Assembly (NCBI GenBank): GCA_022360815.1
Contig: JAKSCC010000310.1
Span: 39,028 to 103,027, forward strand
Origin: Desulfobacterales bacterium
GTDB lineage: Bacteria > Desulfobacterota > Desulfobacteria > Desulfobacterales > Desulfolunaceae
Direction: 5' to 3'
Length of the DNA: 64,000 bases
Part shown: positions 10,793 through 20,817 of the stretch, one piece after another
How positions within the stretch are numbered: the stretch's first letter is position 1
Layout of the letters: every line of letters starts with the position of its first letter
The notes under the pieces: model-generated
Told to the model about the DNA's origin: nothing
Database searches by the model: none
What the model saw: only the letters and a program-made list of their open reading frames with translations
Translations under genes and position numbers: made by a program

Positions 10793-10837
10793 TGAAAGAT
10801 AGAAACCGTTTCGCTTCTGCGCTTCGGTTTATGCGTG

Positions 10838-10926
10838 ATGTGGCTTCCCTACGGCAGTATAAACTGCATCAGGTTCAAAGGGTTGGAATCTCTCCGTCTC
10901 AGCCCCCTTCGGGGCGCCCCCAGCAA
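10838..10926 (-). promoter_or_regulatory. TPP (thi-box) riboswitch
   Basis: Minus strand: ..GGGGGCTGAGACGGAGAGATTCCAACCCTTTGAACCTGATGCAGTTTATACTGCCGTAGGGAAG: canonical CUGAGA and ACCCUUUGAACCUGAU..CUGCGUAGGGA elements upstream of thiSGHFEC. Confidence 0.95.
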
Positions 10927-11177
10927 AAAACTGAAATGTGATGATAGGTTTAACAAAGCTCAAACGAGGAGGCAATGCAAAAAAATCTCTTATTTTGATA
11001 GCCCCCCCTTTCCCCCCTATCATTATGCAAGAGCGCCCCTCCTCATTCCAGGGACAAACACACCCTTAGCGGGTTTCCCCACTGTGGCATACCCCTTGCT
11101 ACTTATGTAAAGCAACAGCGGTCAGCCCACCCAAACTTAAAGAGACCGCCTGATGACGGCAAGCAGGATGTGGCACT

Positions 11178-12347
11178 ATGAAAACAAAAAGCACCGAACG
11201 CCATGAAAATTCTAAGTTTTGGGTTATCTCAAACGGCAGAAACATCACCATAAAGGAAAAAGATGGGGATGAGACCCATCATGCTGTCAGAGAGTACAAA
11301 ATATCCCAATTCGGCTATTACCTTGTAAGCCCTGCTATGATTGAAGTGAAGGACCGCCTTGTAGGAACACGCGTTACCGTTGGAACCCACAGCTTAAAAA
11401 ACCGTCTTCACCACCTCTTCTCTGGAAAAAAGGCAACGCCAGACACACCTTTTGAAGAGGTAACCCTCTACTCCTCCTTTCAGCCCAAAAGCACAAGCGC
11501 TGGAGATTCTCACTTCTCAAAACACATAAACAACCTCTTTACCAAACTCGCCCCGTATGACCCGTTCCAAAAGCAGTTAAAGGAACTGGCCCAAGAGCAA
11601 ATAATGGACGTGACAGGCATCTGCAGAGATATTGCAGACAACCGATACAAGCTGGACCTTCATGGAACCGTTAACGAAAAGCTGGAGTATGTGGCTAAAA
11701 ATATCGGCACTCCCGTACACATCAACATGAAGTGCGCCCACTTAACCAAGGGGCTCTTTGAGCTTCGTGCTTTCGATTTTAAAGCCTTTGACAGCTCCCA
11801 TGAGATCACCCTCTACTCCTTTTTGAAAAAAGGGGTGCCCACCTTCTATGTGTCACCTCATCAAGGTGCCGAGGGTTTTTTCATTGAAGAGCCTGCTCTT
11901 TTCTATTGTCTCCACATTCTTCAGCAGTCTCTTGAGGTCAACTCAGACTTAAAGGATCTTTTTGGAGCCTGTGTGGACGGCACACTGCACCCCTTCAAGC
12001 TCTTTTTCTCCAAGCAGCTTGAATTTCAATACTCCCGTGAACATCTTCCCCTGCTGATTCGCCAGGAGCTTCGCCACACCATGATGAACGATCAGGAAAT
12101 TGGCACCATTGCGGATCTTCTAAATGACTGCCAGCGTGTGGTCTCCTTTAACTATGTGCCCAATGCCGTTAAGGGCCGCGAAAAGATGCTTACCAATATC
12201 TCTGTAATGCACGACTTTAAAGCGTTGGAGCCCCTGAAAAAAAACCACCCGGATCTCTATAATCGAATCAGCCTCAAGGCTCCCACCACCGAAGTAGGAA
12301 AACTCTATCTCTTGGATACTATTAAAGGAAGCACAGACGATGACTAA
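11178..12347 (+). CDS. Protein of unknown function, translationally coupled to Lon-like protease
   Basis: 389-aa ORF, stop overlaps start of the next ORF by 8 nt; no recognisable family or signal peptide. Confidence 0.8.
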   Translation: MKTKSTERHENSKFWVISNGRNITIKEKDGDETHHAVREYKISQFGYYLVSPAMIEVKDRLVGTRVTVGTHSLKNRLHHLFSGKKATPDTPFEEVTLYSSFQPKSTSAGDSHFSKHINNLFTKLAPYDPFQKQLKELAQEQIMDVTGICRDIADNRYKLDLHGTVNEKLEYVAKNIGTPVHINMKCAHLTKGLFELRAFDFKAFDSSHEITLYSFLKKGVPTFYVSPHQGAEGFFIEEPALFYCLHILQQSLEVNSDLKDLFGACVDGTLHPFKLFFSKQLEFQYSREHLPLLIRQELRHTMMNDQEIGTIADLLNDCQRVVSFNYVPNAVKGREKMLTNISVMHDFKALEPLKKNHPDLYNRISLKAPTTEVGKLYLLDTIKGSTDDD

Positions 12348-14634
12348 GACCTTTACCGATAAGGATTACAAAGCGATTCGGGATATCCTGCAGTATCCCA
12401 AACGGCTAAAACAGAACCTTGGCTGGTTTTCAAACACCTCTGAGATTGTTCTTCCAGAAGATCCTGTGGACCGAGTGGTCTTCCAGAAAAGGGCAAGAAA
12501 GGCCATTCGAAAAGTCGCCCAAGCCAAAGGCAGCATGCTCATGGTGGGCCGCCCCGGCACGGGAAAATCGATGCTGGCCAAGATGTTTCGTGAAATTGTA
12601 GACCGTTCCATGGGAGACCATCTTCGCCCCAAAGAGGCCATTGTCGCCTACCCTGGAAAAGATGAAACCCATGTCCGCTTCTCCTATATGGAGCCTGAAA
12701 TAGCCGACGAGCAAATTGACGCCATGCGTGAAGCCTTGGAGTCCGCGCGTTTTTCGGCAACGCCTTTCTCTCTTGCCCAGGAAATTGAAACAGTAAAGCG
12801 CTGGAGAAATGGAGCCCTTGCCCTTGCTGCAGCAACCGCCATTCTTGGATTTTTCATCCCCACAGCCTTTATCTTTACCGGTATTTTTGGCATGGCAGCC
12901 GTCTTCATGCTGCTTCAAGAAAACAACCACAGAGCCCAGGAAAAGCTCCAAAACGAGAAAGGGGGTCGTCGAAACGACGTAAAACACCTTGCCGATCAGC
13001 TTCCTGAAGTCCTCTACGATCCGAGGCATGAGCGGGAGCTGATGGTCTCTGTGGCCGAACCCGATGCACGCTCCATGAAGGGTGGCTTTCGCCACGACCC
13101 CTATCAGTCTGGCAACCTTCAGACCCCTATTCACAAGCGCACATTCTTAGGCGCCCACGCCACCGCGCCCATCATCTTTATGGATGAAATCAAAACCCTC
13201 ATCTCTGCGGGATACATGTCCAGCCTTCTGGAGATCATGCAGAACAAACGTTACATCCTTGAAGGCGGAAAATCGACGGGAAGCGGTGCAGCTGACCGGT
13301 CTGAGAATCACCTGAAAGCCGAGAATATCATCATCGCCTGCTGCAACTACGACACCCTGGGTTATCTCCAAAAAGAGGGCAATGGCGCTTTTTTAAGTCG
13401 CATTGAAGAGCGCGGTGAGATCATTCATATGGAGGGCAGTGTTCCCGAAGATGAGGAGAGCATTCGTGAAGTGGCTCAGTATATTCGCCAAGAGGTGATC
13501 GCCACCCAAAAGGAGTATACCGAAACCTGGGGACCTATCCTCGTAGAGGAGGGGTATGAAGGCGTCCGCAAACGCTCTGCCCACATCTTTGGGCGCGAAC
13601 TTCCTGAGACCTATGAGCTCAGAGCCCGCGACTTCACCTGCGAGGCGGTAGCCGAAGTGGTAAAAGAACTTCGATGCCGCGCCTCAGATGGCAAACTCTC
13701 CGCCCTTCTCAGGCCCATCAACGGTATTGTAAGGGCGGCCCAGCATGAAGCGATTCTGGAAAACGCGCCCATGGTTACCGAATTTCACGTACGAAAGGCC
13801 ACAGAGAGCCAAGAAAGCTTAGAAGGGGCGCTCTCCCGTGAAGTCATCGCCCATAAGAAGGACCTTAAAGAGTACATCACCTCCATGACCGATGCCATTG
13901 GTTACGTTGTTGGCCTGGCTGTGGTCACCGCTCCGGCGGGCGGGCAGATGTATGGTCAACCCCTGCCCATCCACTGCCAGATCAACGCCGGTGGAAGCGA
14001 TCGTGTGGCAGCTCCAGGAAAACTGGGAGAAATCGCCAAAGCTGCGGCCCAGAATGTTCGAGCCTCCATTAAAAAAACCTTAAGAAAGGTCGGCGTACCC
14101 TATGCCGGATACGAGATGCACATCGAATACATTCAGGCCCACGGAGGTGTTGAGGGCGACAGTGCATCCATGGCCATGGATATTGGGCTGATCAGTGACT
14201 TTATTAAAATTCCGGTGGATCAACAGATCGCCATTACGGGATCACTCACCGGAGACATCGTTTTGGCTGTGGGAGGGGTCACGGAAAAAGTGCGATGCAT
14301 CATGGATGTAGACCTCAATATGAAAGGTGCCTGCATTCCCTGGCAAAACAGACACGACATCGAGCCTCTTCTCGTCAACCGAGACACCGAGGTGATCGCC
14401 CATGGAGAGATCCCCGGCATTCGAATTTTCAGAGAAGATGATCGGCAAGCCCCCTTTGATGTCTTTTTCATCAAGACCAAGTTCAACGCCTATGAAATCA
14501 TGATGGGTCTCTCACGCCACCAAGTGGAGAAAAAAATGGCAGAGCGTTCCGTGGCCGACATGAACCAAGCATGGCGTTCCCGAAAGGGAGAAGACGCGCA
14601 GGATCAACTTCCTCCTGTATCCTGCACGGCATAA
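12340..14634 (+). CDS. Membrane AAA+ Lon-type protease, archaeal LonB-like architecture
   Basis: Walker A GRPGTGKSML, two TM segments (LALAAATAILGFFIPTAFIFTGIFGMAAVFMLL) inserted before Walker B IIFMDEI, C-terminal Lon protease domain with GGVEGDSASMAMD (Ser) and VGGVTEKV (Lys). Confidence 0.9.
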   Translation: MTKTFTDKDYKAIRDILQYPKRLKQNLGWFSNTSEIVLPEDPVDRVVFQKRARKAIRKVAQAKGSMLMVGRPGTGKSMLAKMFREIVDRSMGDHLRPKEAIVAYPGKDETHVRFSYMEPEIADEQIDAMREALESARFSATPFSLAQEIETVKRWRNGALALAAATAILGFFIPTAFIFTGIFGMAAVFMLLQENNHRAQEKLQNEKGGRRNDVKHLADQLPEVLYDPRHERELMVSVAEPDARSMKGGFRHDPYQSGNLQTPIHKRTFLGAHATAPIIFMDEIKTLISAGYMSSLLEIMQNKRYILEGGKSTGSGAADRSENHLKAENIIIACCNYDTLGYLQKEGNGAFLSRIEERGEIIHMEGSVPEDEESIREVAQYIRQEVIATQKEYTETWGPILVEEGYEGVRKRSAHIFGRELPETYELRARDFTCEAVAEVVKELRCRASDGKLSALLRPINGIVRAAQHEAILENAPMVTEFHVRKATESQESLEGALSREVIAHKKDLKEYITSMTDAIGYVVGLAVVTAPAGGQMYGQPLPIHCQINAGGSDRVAAPGKLGEIAKAAAQNVRASIKKTLRKVGVPYAGYEMHIEYIQAHGGVEGDSASMAMDIGLISDFIKIPVDQQIAITGSLTGDIVLAVGGVTEKVRCIMDVDLNMKGACIPWQNRHDIEPLLVNRDTEVIAHGEIPGIRIFREDDRQAPFDVFFIKTKFNAYEIMMGLSRHQVEKKMAERSVADMNQAWRSRKGEDAQDQLPPVSCTA

Positions 14635-14741
14635 GGCCGGAGTCTCTTCCAGCATGCACGGTCGGGCGAGAATGATCCTCCCCCCCATTCATTCCCCCGG
14701 TCGTGCATGCAACCAAAACCATAAAAAATCGGGATACTTCA

Positions 14742-15953
14742 ATGAAAAAACTACTTATCTCTATTTTGCTTGTACTTTCTGCATCTGCAGTAAAAGCTCA
14801 GCAACTCTATACGGACAACCTGATCCAGCCCGCCCACAGCATGACCCGATCCTTCCATTATCCATGGAACGGGTTGACTCTTACGGTAGACTTTCAAATC
14901 AATCGTGTTTTCCGAACTCAAGTGGATTTAAATCGCACGCTTTTCGGGCGGGCCATGTCTGGTATGGGGCAAGCGGTAAAGCAGGCGTGGAGCCAAGGCT
15001 ACACAGGACAAAACGTCAATATCGGCATTCTCGATGCCATCCGTCCCAATGACCGCCGTTTCCCCATTGTCCTCTCAAATGTTAACGTAAGGCCTCAGGC
15101 TTTAACCCAAGTCCAATACACCGTAAATTTCGAATACCAGGGTTCCCCACAGCGCAACCGCTCCTTCCAATTGAGCTCAGAGCATGACACGCCGTGGAGG
15201 GTCAGAAACAATGGAACATTTTCCGGCCGCTACACGCACGGGCAAATTGCATCTCTCATTGCAGGCGGACGCCATACGGATGCCGATGGAACGGTTCTTT
15301 ACGGTATCGCAAAGGATGCAAACATCACGTTTATACAATCGGATTACGGCAACTATGCCGCAAAATTCACGCAAAAACCTTTTGATTTCATCAACGCCAG
15401 TCTCAGTCGAACCATCGCATACAACCGTGAATTTATGGAAAATCTCTACACCGCCATTGACCGCTCCGGAAAATATTCAGACGGCAAACTTCCCGTTTAC
15501 ATCACCTCGGGAGGCAATTACCACTACACCCTCGGTACCCCCACCTACGAGGGACTAAAACAAGGGCGATCCTACATAGCTGACTACAATGCCGTCACCA
15601 TGGCCATGAGTGACAACACCCATGACGGCCGCCCCTTATCAGACTACCTTCTTGTTGTTGGAGCAGACCACGGAATCACCAACAGGCCGGGTGAGGTGGT
15701 GGAACTTCAGAAACGATGGATCGTTGCGCCATATCATGTTCCACATGATAGAGGAACCATTCAAGGCACTTCGTTTTCGACACCTTTTGTCACCGGCATT
15801 GCAGGCGTTGTTAAAAGCAAATTCCCCACCCTGGATCCGGCTGACGTGGCCAACCTTCTTCTTGAAACAGCACGGGATATAGGAGCCCCCGGAATGGATG
15901 CTGTCTATGGACGTGGTATGGTCGATCTGGCCAATGCCCTTTCCCCTCAATAA
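14742..15953 (+). CDS. Secreted subtilisin-like (S8) serine protease, paralog 1
   Basis: Signal peptide MKKLLISILLVLSASAVKA; VNIGILD (Asp), THGQIASLIAGG (His), ITSGGN, GTSFSTPFVTGIAG (Ser). Confidence 0.85.
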   Translation: MKKLLISILLVLSASAVKAQQLYTDNLIQPAHSMTRSFHYPWNGLTLTVDFQINRVFRTQVDLNRTLFGRAMSGMGQAVKQAWSQGYTGQNVNIGILDAIRPNDRRFPIVLSNVNVRPQALTQVQYTVNFEYQGSPQRNRSFQLSSEHDTPWRVRNNGTFSGRYTHGQIASLIAGGRHTDADGTVLYGIAKDANITFIQSDYGNYAAKFTQKPFDFINASLSRTIAYNREFMENLYTAIDRSGKYSDGKLPVYITSGGNYHYTLGTPTYEGLKQGRSYIADYNAVTMAMSDNTHDGRPLSDYLLVVGADHGITNRPGEVVELQKRWIVAPYHVPHDRGTIQGTSFSTPFVTGIAGVVKSKFPTLDPADVANLLLETARDIGAPGMDAVYGRGMVDLANALSPQ

Positions 15954-16218
15954 CAAGCTAAAGCATCACCTTTTCAGGCATTTTCAGACAGAAACAAAGT
16001 CTCATTTTGATAAACCAGGCTTCAAATGAACTATCAAAATGAGCTTAACCTAATCTCCAAAAAGAAAAAGGATACAACCACAACGCCCCTCTATACAGCA
16101 TCTTGAGGCAAACACCCTTCACGGAATATTTTTTGCATATATGTTTGTCAGGATGAAGAATGTTCAAGCCATTGTGAAAACGGCACACGCCTTATTTTGC
16201 ACTTTGGGGGGTATTTAA

Positions 16219-17430
16219 ATGAAAAAAATAGTCATCCTACTTGCCTTGCTATTTTCAGTGTCCATGGCGGAAACACAACAGCTCTATACGGACACCCAAA
16301 TAGACGCGCCCTTTAATTCCTTAGCTCTATCTTTTCATTACCCAAGTATTGAACTTGCCATGACGGTGGACATTGAATTCAGCCGCATGTTTCGAACCCA
16401 AGTGGATCTGGATCGCACGCTTTTTGGACGGGCCATGTCCGGTATGGGCCAAACGGTAAGGCAGGCATGGAGCCAGGGCTATACCGGACAAAATGTCAAT
16501 ATCGCCATTGTGGACTTTATAAAACCCACGGCTCCTAAATTTTCTCTTACACTCTCCAATGTCAACCGCAACCCCCAGGCCTTGACCCACGCTCACTACA
16601 CTGTGGAGTACATCTATGAAAATACCCCCCAATTAAACCGAACCTTGGAGTTAACCTCAGAGGCCAACACCCCCTGGAGAGTAACAAACAACCGGACATT
16701 TTCCGGTAATTTCACACACTGGGAGTTTGCAGCCATTCTTGCTGGTGGCCGACATGTGGATGCCGATGGAACAGTTCTCTATGGCATTGCCAAAGACGCC
16801 AACATCACCCTTCTGCACTACAACCAACCCAGTTATGTGAACGAAGTTTCTCGAAAACCCTTTGACTTCATCAATGCCAGCTTAAGCCTGACCATCCCCG
16901 ATGGGGGAGCCATGGAGACTGTCTACACGACCATTGACAACTCCGGAATTTACCCGGATGGCCACCTTCCCGTCTACATCACTGCAGGAGGAAATACTTA
17001 CTACACTATCGGTACCCCCACCTACAGTGGGCTGGAGCAAGGCCTGCATAGCATAGCCGACTACCATGCCGTCACCATGGCCATGAGTGACAACACCTAC
17101 GACGACCGCCCCTTGTCGGACTACCTTCTCATTGTTGGAGCAGATCACGGAATCACCAACAGGCCAGGAGAAGTGGTGGAACTTCAAAGGCGATGGATCG
17201 TTGCGCCATATCAATTTCCGCATGATGGTGGAACCCTTCAAGGCACATCGTTTTCGGCACCTTTTGTCACCGGCATTGCAAGCGTTGTTAAAAGCAAATT
17301 CCCTACCCTCGCCCCGGCGGATGTGGCCAACCTTCTTCTCGAAACCGCACGGGACGTAGGTGCCCCCGGAATGGATGCTATCTATGGACGCGGCATGGTC
17401 GATCTGGCCAATGCCCTTTCTCCTCAGTAG
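16219..17430 (+). CDS. Secreted subtilisin-like (S8) serine protease, paralog 2
   Basis: Collinear with the previous ORF over its whole length; VNIAIVD, THWEFAAILAGG, ITAGGN, GTSFSAPFVTGIAS. Confidence 0.85.
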   Translation: MKKIVILLALLFSVSMAETQQLYTDTQIDAPFNSLALSFHYPSIELAMTVDIEFSRMFRTQVDLDRTLFGRAMSGMGQTVRQAWSQGYTGQNVNIAIVDFIKPTAPKFSLTLSNVNRNPQALTHAHYTVEYIYENTPQLNRTLELTSEANTPWRVTNNRTFSGNFTHWEFAAILAGGRHVDADGTVLYGIAKDANITLLHYNQPSYVNEVSRKPFDFINASLSLTIPDGGAMETVYTTIDNSGIYPDGHLPVYITAGGNTYYTIGTPTYSGLEQGLHSIADYHAVTMAMSDNTYDDRPLSDYLLIVGADHGITNRPGEVVELQRRWIVAPYQFPHDGGTLQGTSFSAPFVTGIASVVKSKFPTLAPADVANLLLETARDVGAPGMDAIYGRGMVDLANALSPQ

Positions 17431-17723: not shown

Positions 17724-17922
17724 CGGTGCCCTTGATTGCTCCTGACTCCAGCCTCTTGTCTGGTCTAAGCAAACAATTACCAAGTGCAAAACCTGGAAAG
17801 GATCGCTAAACCGAGGTAATGTGTGACTCATCACCCACCGGACAGGGAAGGATACGTTTATCCTGCCCTATGGGTATGTCACGTGCTGCCTCGATCGTTT
17901 TTTCAAGTAAGGATACGTGACA

Positions 17923-20007
<2,085 letters not shown>

Positions 20008-20130
20008 CCTTAAGGGATATTCCCTGTTGAGCCCGGCAGCAACCGATTGTCAGCATTGTTTTTCGAGTGAACTGCCGGGTGATACCAAGGTTCATGCTTT
20101 ACACGAACCTCAGCGACAAGAGAGGATGAT

Positions 20131-20817
20131 ATGACAAAGAAGGAATTGATCTTCAGAAACCCCTTCGGTGCCCTGGGCATCGACTGCGATGATATGATCA
20201 ACGGTGGTGAGCTCGGTGCCGTGATGGCGCGTGCCGGCCTCGGAAAAACCTCCCTTGTGGTTCAAATGGCTCTTCACGCCATGGCTCGAGGCAAAAACGT
20301 TCTTCACGTCAGCCTTGATGAGCCTGTGAAAAAGGTCAACGTCTGGTACAGTGAAATGTTCACCAACCTGGCTGACCTCAACAAGGTGGAAGAGCCTCAG
20401 TCGGCCTATGACGAAATCCTTCCCAATCGTATGATTCTCACCATGAATGTGGATGGATTTTCTGTGGATCGCCTTGAAGAGCGAGTCAATGATTTCATGG
20501 AACAAGGCATCTTCAAGCCTGACATGATGATTATTGACGGCTATCCCTTTGAAGAGATGAACCGTGAACAGATGGCAGAGGTAAAGGCTCTGGCAGCCCG
20601 TATCGGTGCTTTTGCCCTCTTTACTGTAAAAACCCATCGCCACGAGTCTCCCTCTGAAAATGGTCTGCCCGTTCAGCTGGGTGGTGTCGATGATCTGTTC
20701 AGCACACTGCTTCAGATTGTTCCTGAAAACAACACCATCTTTGTCAAGTCCGTAAAAGGCGTCAAAGCTGGGGAAGAAGGGGCCGTTATTGACCCCGAAA
20801 CCATGATCATCCGTTAA
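20131..20817 (+). CDS. RecA/KaiC-like P-loop ATPase of unknown role
   Basis: ARAGLGKTSLVVQMALHAMARGKNVLHVSLDEP Walker A region, DMMIIDGYPF Walker B-like. Confidence 0.65.
   Translation: MTKKELIFRNPFGALGIDCDDMINGGELGAVMARAGLGKTSLVVQMALHAMARGKNVLHVSLDEPVKKVNVWYSEMFTNLADLNKVEEPQSAYDEILPNRMILTMNVDGFSVDRLEERVNDFMEQGIFKPDMMIIDGYPFEEMNREQMAEVKALAARIGAFALFTVKTHRHESPSENGLPVQLGGVDDLFSTLLQIVPENNTIFVKSVKGVKAGEEGAVIDPETMIIR

Follow-up and report, generated by a model that had tools for sequence, protein, structure and literature searches.

The DNA examined here, a 64-kb stretch of a Desulfobacterales genome (hereafter, the window), carries two overlapping genes. The second, ORF B, is predicted to encode a membrane-anchored Lon-type protease, and the first, ORF A, encodes a 389-residue protein of no recognizable family. 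Is A a dedicated partner of the protease and, if so, in which process might the two proteins act? A preliminary description, made from the sequence alone, had proposed that A could be an adaptor, substrate, or regulator of a membrane-anchored quality-control protease.

The A-B gene pair and its inheritance

The coordinates of the two ORFs and the 8-nt overlap between them had been given correctly in that description (Table 1). The TAA of A (positions 12345 to 12347) falls within the first codons of B, and this arrangement recurs well beyond the window, with an overlap of 8 nt in 42 and of 11 nt in 16 of the 67 pairs compared (together 58/67, in two phyla); in four pairs, the genes are separated by short gaps. 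The ribosome-binding site of B would sit within the codons for the conserved C terminus of A, where homologs have purine-rich GGAGG-like stretches at the position equivalent to the probable Shine-Dalgarno sequence of the window.

Table 1. Features of the A-B locus and its immediate surroundings (window coordinates)
Feature	Position	Strand	Remarks
TPP riboswitch	10829..10931	-	Rfam RF00059, 74 bits; before thiS-G-H-F-E-C operon
Sigma54-type -24/-12 promoter (predicted), TGGCATACCCCTTGCT	11085..11100	+	79 nt before A start codon
ORF A	11178..12347	+	389 aa; family unrecognized; dedicated partner of B
Probable Shine-Dalgarno sequence of B, AAGGAAG	12325..12331	+	Read from sequence; inside codons for conserved C-terminal IKG of A
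Overlap of A (stop) and B (start)	12340..12347	+	8 nt
ORF B	12340..14634	+	764 aa; LonB-type membrane-anchored AAA+ Ser-Lys protease (predicted)
Walker A of B, GRPGTGKS	12547..12570	+	Residues 70-77; K76 and S77 invariant
Hydrophobic helical hairpin of B, predicted membrane anchor	12775..12957	+	Residues 146-206
Walker B of B, IIFMDE	13171..13188	+	Residues 278-283; D282 and E283 invariant
AAA+ LID domain of B, LonB type	13633..13815	+	Residues 432-492; PF20436, 1.9e-5
Catalytic Ser608 of B in EGDSAS	14161..14163	+	Invariant; Asp precedes Ser, LonB-type center
Catalytic Lys650 of B in GGVTEK	14287..14289	+	Invariant; 41 residues between Ser608 and Lys650
C-terminal beta-beta-beta-alpha-alpha part of B	14383..14586	+	Residues 682-749; exceeds archaeal LonB in length
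Two tandem similar ORFs, apparently secreted subtilases	14703..17430	+	Directly 3' of B; first ORF, Pfam Peptidase_S8
fusA (EF-G), then KaiC-like ATPase	17917..20817	+	

Two apparent departures from this layout were artifacts. A 1,300-aa extended B in genome G036, seemingly a fusion, was discarded since the extension to the start of B is not stop-free in translation and tblastn places a normally running B at L041:11062-8837. The seemingly truncated A of G277, a genome with no flagellin, is explained by a stretch of N in the scaffold sequence and not by gene decay.

A is present in 62 of the 390 genomes of the class, and among 58 relatives A and B occur in the same 15 genomes, with neither in the other 43. 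Scanning GTDB contigs with an alignment of A gave 68 loci, whose depositor names are mainly Desulfobacterales/Deltaproteobacteria and Nitrospirae/Thermodesulfovibrionia. The preliminary description had singled out a lack of conserved adjacency as evidence against a joint system; in all 66 testable contigs, from Desulfobacterota and Nitrospirota, B lies directly 3' of A on the same strand, the remaining two contigs ending inside A. When B was searched alone in 395 genomes of the phylum, nine copies were found, eight of them outside the genome of the window; the matches are all at 59 to 62% identity, with none in between, and wherever a B locus from the phylum and relatives searches was examined, A lies upstream. 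A and B are thus an obligate pair. No third conserved gene was found around them.

The two genes also share a common history. The maximum-likelihood tree of A largely agrees with that of B, most Nitrospirota rows being kept apart from Desulfobacterota rows in both, and the pairwise distances of the two proteins correlate (Spearman 0.83). A is the faster evolving of the two (mean identity, 41% versus 70% for B). The window copies lie on long branches (1.17 for A and 0.84 for B, against medians of 0.23 and 0.16), with the core catalytic residues intact. Recent horizontal transfer of A-B was considered and is unsupported, the trees being largely structured by phylum. The recurrent overlap and the pairing in all testable loci are more than chance would produce, and these observations, together with the congruent trees, leave a negligible probability that an orphan ORF and a Lon gene are ordinary neighbors overlapping by accident.

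Several neighbors recur at individual loci. Several Desulfobacterota have, near A-B, an HDOD zinc-ribbon protein, an ATPase of PilB type with MshEN and cyclic-nucleotide domains, or both, and a T2SSE-family ATPase related to the PilB-type one adjoins B in two Nitrospirota-group loci (L089, L113, L120, L100, L109, L102, L066, and L069 for these neighbors as a whole). PilZ-domain proteins flank the pair in the Nitrospirota loci L065, L068, L073, L112, and L116, a possible link to c-di-GMP. In the window, the tandem subtilase-like ORFs that follow B are absent from that place in related genomes and lie outside the conserved pair. The thi operon runs away from A, its riboswitch having ~90% DNA identity in congeners.

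Within the family to which the window belongs, two other genera have the gene order A-B-fusA-KaiC-like, while five congeners have the thi genes followed by fusA and the KaiC-like gene without A-B and without any detectable remnant of the pair in the gap. The window shares the linkage of fusA and the KaiC-like gene to A-B with the two other genera, and both genes are kept in the congeners that lack the pair. The presence of A-B in those genera and the clean gap in the congeners indicate that the family probably had the pair ancestrally and that the five congeners lost it, a loss that marks the pair as accessory. Contamination of the metagenome-assembled genome was rejected as a source of A-B, as the flanking thi genes and fusA stand in the same order in the five congeners; fusA of the window is 91 to 93% identical to theirs.

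Searches of plasmids and IMG/VR yielded no A, and B gave only distant Lon-family matches in plasmids, phage records (where B was the sole query), and IMG/VR. An anti-phage defense module was considered and rejected: A has no PADLOC match, B matches only generic AAA and weak BrxL domains, and the absence of A from plasmids and IMG/VR and the tree-like inheritance also speak against a defense setting. The same data bear on the idea that A acts on B as a regulatory lid or inhibitor, keeping a potentially harmful membrane protease off until a signal arrives. As is common for inhibitors, A is translated first from the shared message, its frame overlapping that of B, and B is never found without A; however, A is likewise never without B in testable loci, the pair is inherited by descent and is not mobile, and it has no match in the defense library. 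We regard a lid or inhibitor as unlikely.

The two proteins and their nearest relatives

The preliminary description had noted a hydrophobic double segment between the Walker motifs of B and a Ser-Lys dyad in EGDSAS and GGVTEK, and both features are general to the family. The hydrophobic stretch covers approximately residues 156 to 196 (KD19 maximum of 2.14 in the window copy), a segment of this kind lies between the Walker motifs in 61/61 B proteins compared, and the AlphaFold2 model of B (pLDDT 76.5, pTM 0.70) folds it as a hairpin of helices 146-170 and 176-206. About 206 residues separate the Walker A Lys from the Walker B Asp across the family. S608 and K650 are invariant, as are D607 and all other core catalytic residues, and the spacing between Ser and Lys is 41 residues in 59/59 homologs measured automatically; two more members, each with one substitution in the motif, were checked by eye and stand outside the 59. 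Only ~45 residues precede the AAA+ module. Pfam recognizes Lon_C (4e-15) and LonB_AAA-LID in B, and the C-terminal beta-beta-beta-alpha-alpha part is modeled at a pLDDT of ~88 to 93 over most of its length.

LonB proteases are defined by a membrane-anchoring insert of >100 aa with helical hydrophobic segments between Walker A and Walker B and by an Asp directly before the catalytic Ser, and the Ser-Lys spacing described for both LonA and LonB is exactly 42 residues (PMC9569914). B has the insert and the Asp-Ser center. Its nearest solved structure, by sequence and by fold, is 3k1j, the LonB of T. onnurineus (best PDB fold match of the model, E 1e-31), although the sequence match ends at B residue 674 and the alignment has a one-residue gap at TGSLT-GD. 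The NCBIfam LonB model TIGR00764 scores B at 253.4 bits (4.5e-75), below its cut-off of 516.6, and the LonA model TIGR00763 at 51 bits against a cut-off of 608. Because of the 41-residue spacing and the missed TIGR00764 cut-off, we describe B as LonB-like and do not assign it to LonB itself. The resemblance to archaeal LonB put forward in the preliminary description hence stands for the insert, the catalytic center, and the nearest structure and falls short in the spacing and the family score; by its sequence, B is a divergent LonB-like Ser-Lys protease.

B can be compared with the individual Lon types. Archaeal LonB (MEROPS S16.005; 3k1j) combines, like B, an AAA+ module and a Ser-Lys domain without a large N-domain, a hydrophobic insert between Walker A and B, an Asp before the catalytic Ser, and a LonB-type LID. 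B, in contrast, is only ~25% identical to it, reaches about half the NCBIfam LonB cut-off score, has the shorter spacing and a longer C terminus, and occurs in bacterial hosts with an obligate partner gene. The bacterial LonBA of B. subtilis is also filed near LonB and also lacks the LonA N-domain (PMC9569914), but LonBA proteins, from Firmicutes, have an A-type center and an N-terminal anchor without a large insert (PMC9569914), whereas B has a B-type center and an anchor inside the AAA+ module, which rules out LonBA. LonA was rejected because B has no large coiled-coil N-terminal domain and has Asp, not Pro, before the catalytic Ser. The second-best fold match is the LonC of M. taiwanensis (MtaLonC), a class that has lost ATPase activity (PMC9569914), in contrast to B, which retains the Walker A and Walker B residues.

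That A belongs to no recognizable family was upheld at every level compared. It has no match in Pfam, NCBIfam, PHROGs, or PADLOC; 58 homologs scanned individually gave scattered chance-level matches only; and a profile of A found nothing below E 0.87 among PDB sequences. The AlphaFold2 model is good (pLDDT 83.5, pTM 0.82) and depicts a mixed alpha/beta protein that has no strong hydrophobic segment (KD19 maximum, 0.92) and whose conserved C terminus ends as a beta strand, not a free tail. Foldseek found no counterpart of this model in the PDB (best E 0.07, probability 0.05) and nothing in BFVD. Judged from the model, A is a folded, soluble protein unlike known folds, and a known unrelated function, which the preliminary description had listed as evidence against its proposal, was not found for it.

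These properties of A weigh on whether it might chiefly serve B as a substrate, or assemble with it as a client, to be matured or destroyed by the protease while working in a membrane or flagellar system. Tight one-to-one pairing would suit a client, as would the faster evolution of A, but a well-folded protein without a strong hydrophobic segment, whose conserved C-terminal strand offers no loose degron, makes this role improbable. The role of substrate, one of those originally suggested for A, accordingly looks less likely.

Promoter sites and the association with flagellin

The predicted promoter TGGCATACCCCTTGCT is the best sigma54-type site of the window and the sole 8/8 match (scored positions besides GG/GC) in its 64 kb. 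Comparable sites precede A in two genomes of the same family (L053 and L054), and in all three family members the sites lie 93 to 160 nt before the gene. The sigma54 consensus reported for Desulfovibrio is tGGcacg/tTGCt, and the largest sigma54 group in Desulfovibrio vulgaris concerns flagella and the cell exterior (PMC4641369). Across Desulfobacterota, a sigma54 site occurs within 300 nt of A at 11/42 loci (the window plus 10 others) compared with 15/479 control ORFs from the same loci.

Nitrospirota loci carry a different signal. Here, a sigma28-like site, scored as [TC]AA[AGT]-N15-[GA]CCG[AT][AT], lies within 300 nt of A in 16/19 cases versus 4/181 same-locus control ORFs, usually 60 to 115 nt before the gene; the motif was noticed in the A upstream sequences before being tested on them. 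The reference sigma28 consensus is TAAAGTTT-N11-GCCGATAA (PMC2859248, PMC7286023), and in many of these Nitrospirota the flagellin genes have TAAAG...GCCGATA promoters. The -35 box of the sites before A deviates from TAAA. One variant, CAAG-N15-GCCGTAT, matches sigma28 weakly and, genome-wide, occurs almost exclusively before A, and it could therefore be the site of another regulator. Neither promoter type is present in 26 of the 61 scored loci.

Flagellin was detected in 55/62 carriers of A-B and in 160/328 non-carriers (Fisher P 1.3e-9, not tree-corrected), and with one genome per family the proportions are 10/12 and 17/38 (P 0.024). All 20 Nitrospirota carriers have flagellin. It went undetected in seven of the 62 carriers, including the 97%-complete G040 and G110; half of the non-carriers are flagellated, and five flagellated congeners are without A-B. 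Connections between Lon and motility are on record elsewhere: in Caulobacter, Lon degrades the hook-length regulator FliK (PMC8545394), and in B. subtilis, the Lon adaptor SmiA acts with LonA in motility control (PMC9204741). Membership of A-B in a motility regulon is, on these promoter and gene-content patterns, an evenly balanced proposition.

The pair might instead be a general stress or membrane quality-control protease, in which case the promoter and flagellin signals would reflect the common descent of motile lineages and not function. In archaea, LonB acts as a protease at the membrane and has global roles (PMC4510384), and both the many flagellated non-carriers and the loci without promoter sites would fit such a function. 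Yet the sigma28 and sigma54 sites are enriched over same-locus control ORFs in two phyla, the flagellin association persists in the one-per-family sample, and the pair can be cleanly lost, all of which render general quality control doubtful. This label was the weakest part of the preliminary description: promoter sites and the flagellin link favor a regulated, motility-associated role over a constitutive or heat shock function.

A possible role for the pair

Overall, the reading we prefer, with a probability of roughly 0.5, is that A is dedicated to a membrane LonB-like protease expressed with the motility program and serves it as a partner, probably as an adaptor that selects substrates. Its elements differ in strength. 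The A-B partnership is well supported by genomics, and a physical complex of the two proteins is probable; the adaptor role of A in particular is plausible, if a shade less than evenly poised. By analogy with its family, B would form a hexameric AAA+ ring, anchored in the inner membrane by the two-helix insert, that feeds a Ser608-Lys650 proteolytic chamber in an ATP-dependent manner. In common with archaeal LonB, B lacks the large domain that LonA has at its N terminus for recognition. A, soluble and encoded on the same message, would be made just before B and coupled to it through the overlapping codons. Most probably it binds B and either selects or delivers specific substrates, as a recognition domain in trans, or gates the protease. 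As motility sigma factors appear to govern expression, the pair would probably serve to remove particular membrane, flagellar, or surface proteins in a regulated way in the motile program and not as general housekeeping.

A bolder version, which we advance tentatively, would see in A-B a previously undescribed two-part membrane protease of sulfate-reducing and related bacteria (Desulfobacterota and Nitrospirota), in which a new LonB-like subfamily depends on an obligatory recognition subunit of new fold and, under flagellar sigma factors, governs the motile state through the breakdown of membrane or flagellar proteins.

An open-access literature library yielded no description of the A-B pair. 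Few dedicated adaptors or regulators of Lon are known. Those encountered here, such as SmiA and LarA of Caulobacter (PMC10665427), are, like A, separate proteins that direct or activate Lon, but they serve soluble LonA, and none was found for membrane LonB. A has 389 aa and matches no solved fold, and its pairing with B in one overlapping operon was invariable here. A and B have the appearance of an undescribed machine for protein degradation, built of two parts and perhaps tied to swimming motility. A partner so strictly paired, and of unrecognized fold, would provide a clean two-protein system in which to study substrate choice by a membrane-anchored Lon, and would define a family for genes that every curated library tested here leaves unrecognized. 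It could also link regulated proteolysis to motility in two anaerobic phyla about whose regulation little is known.
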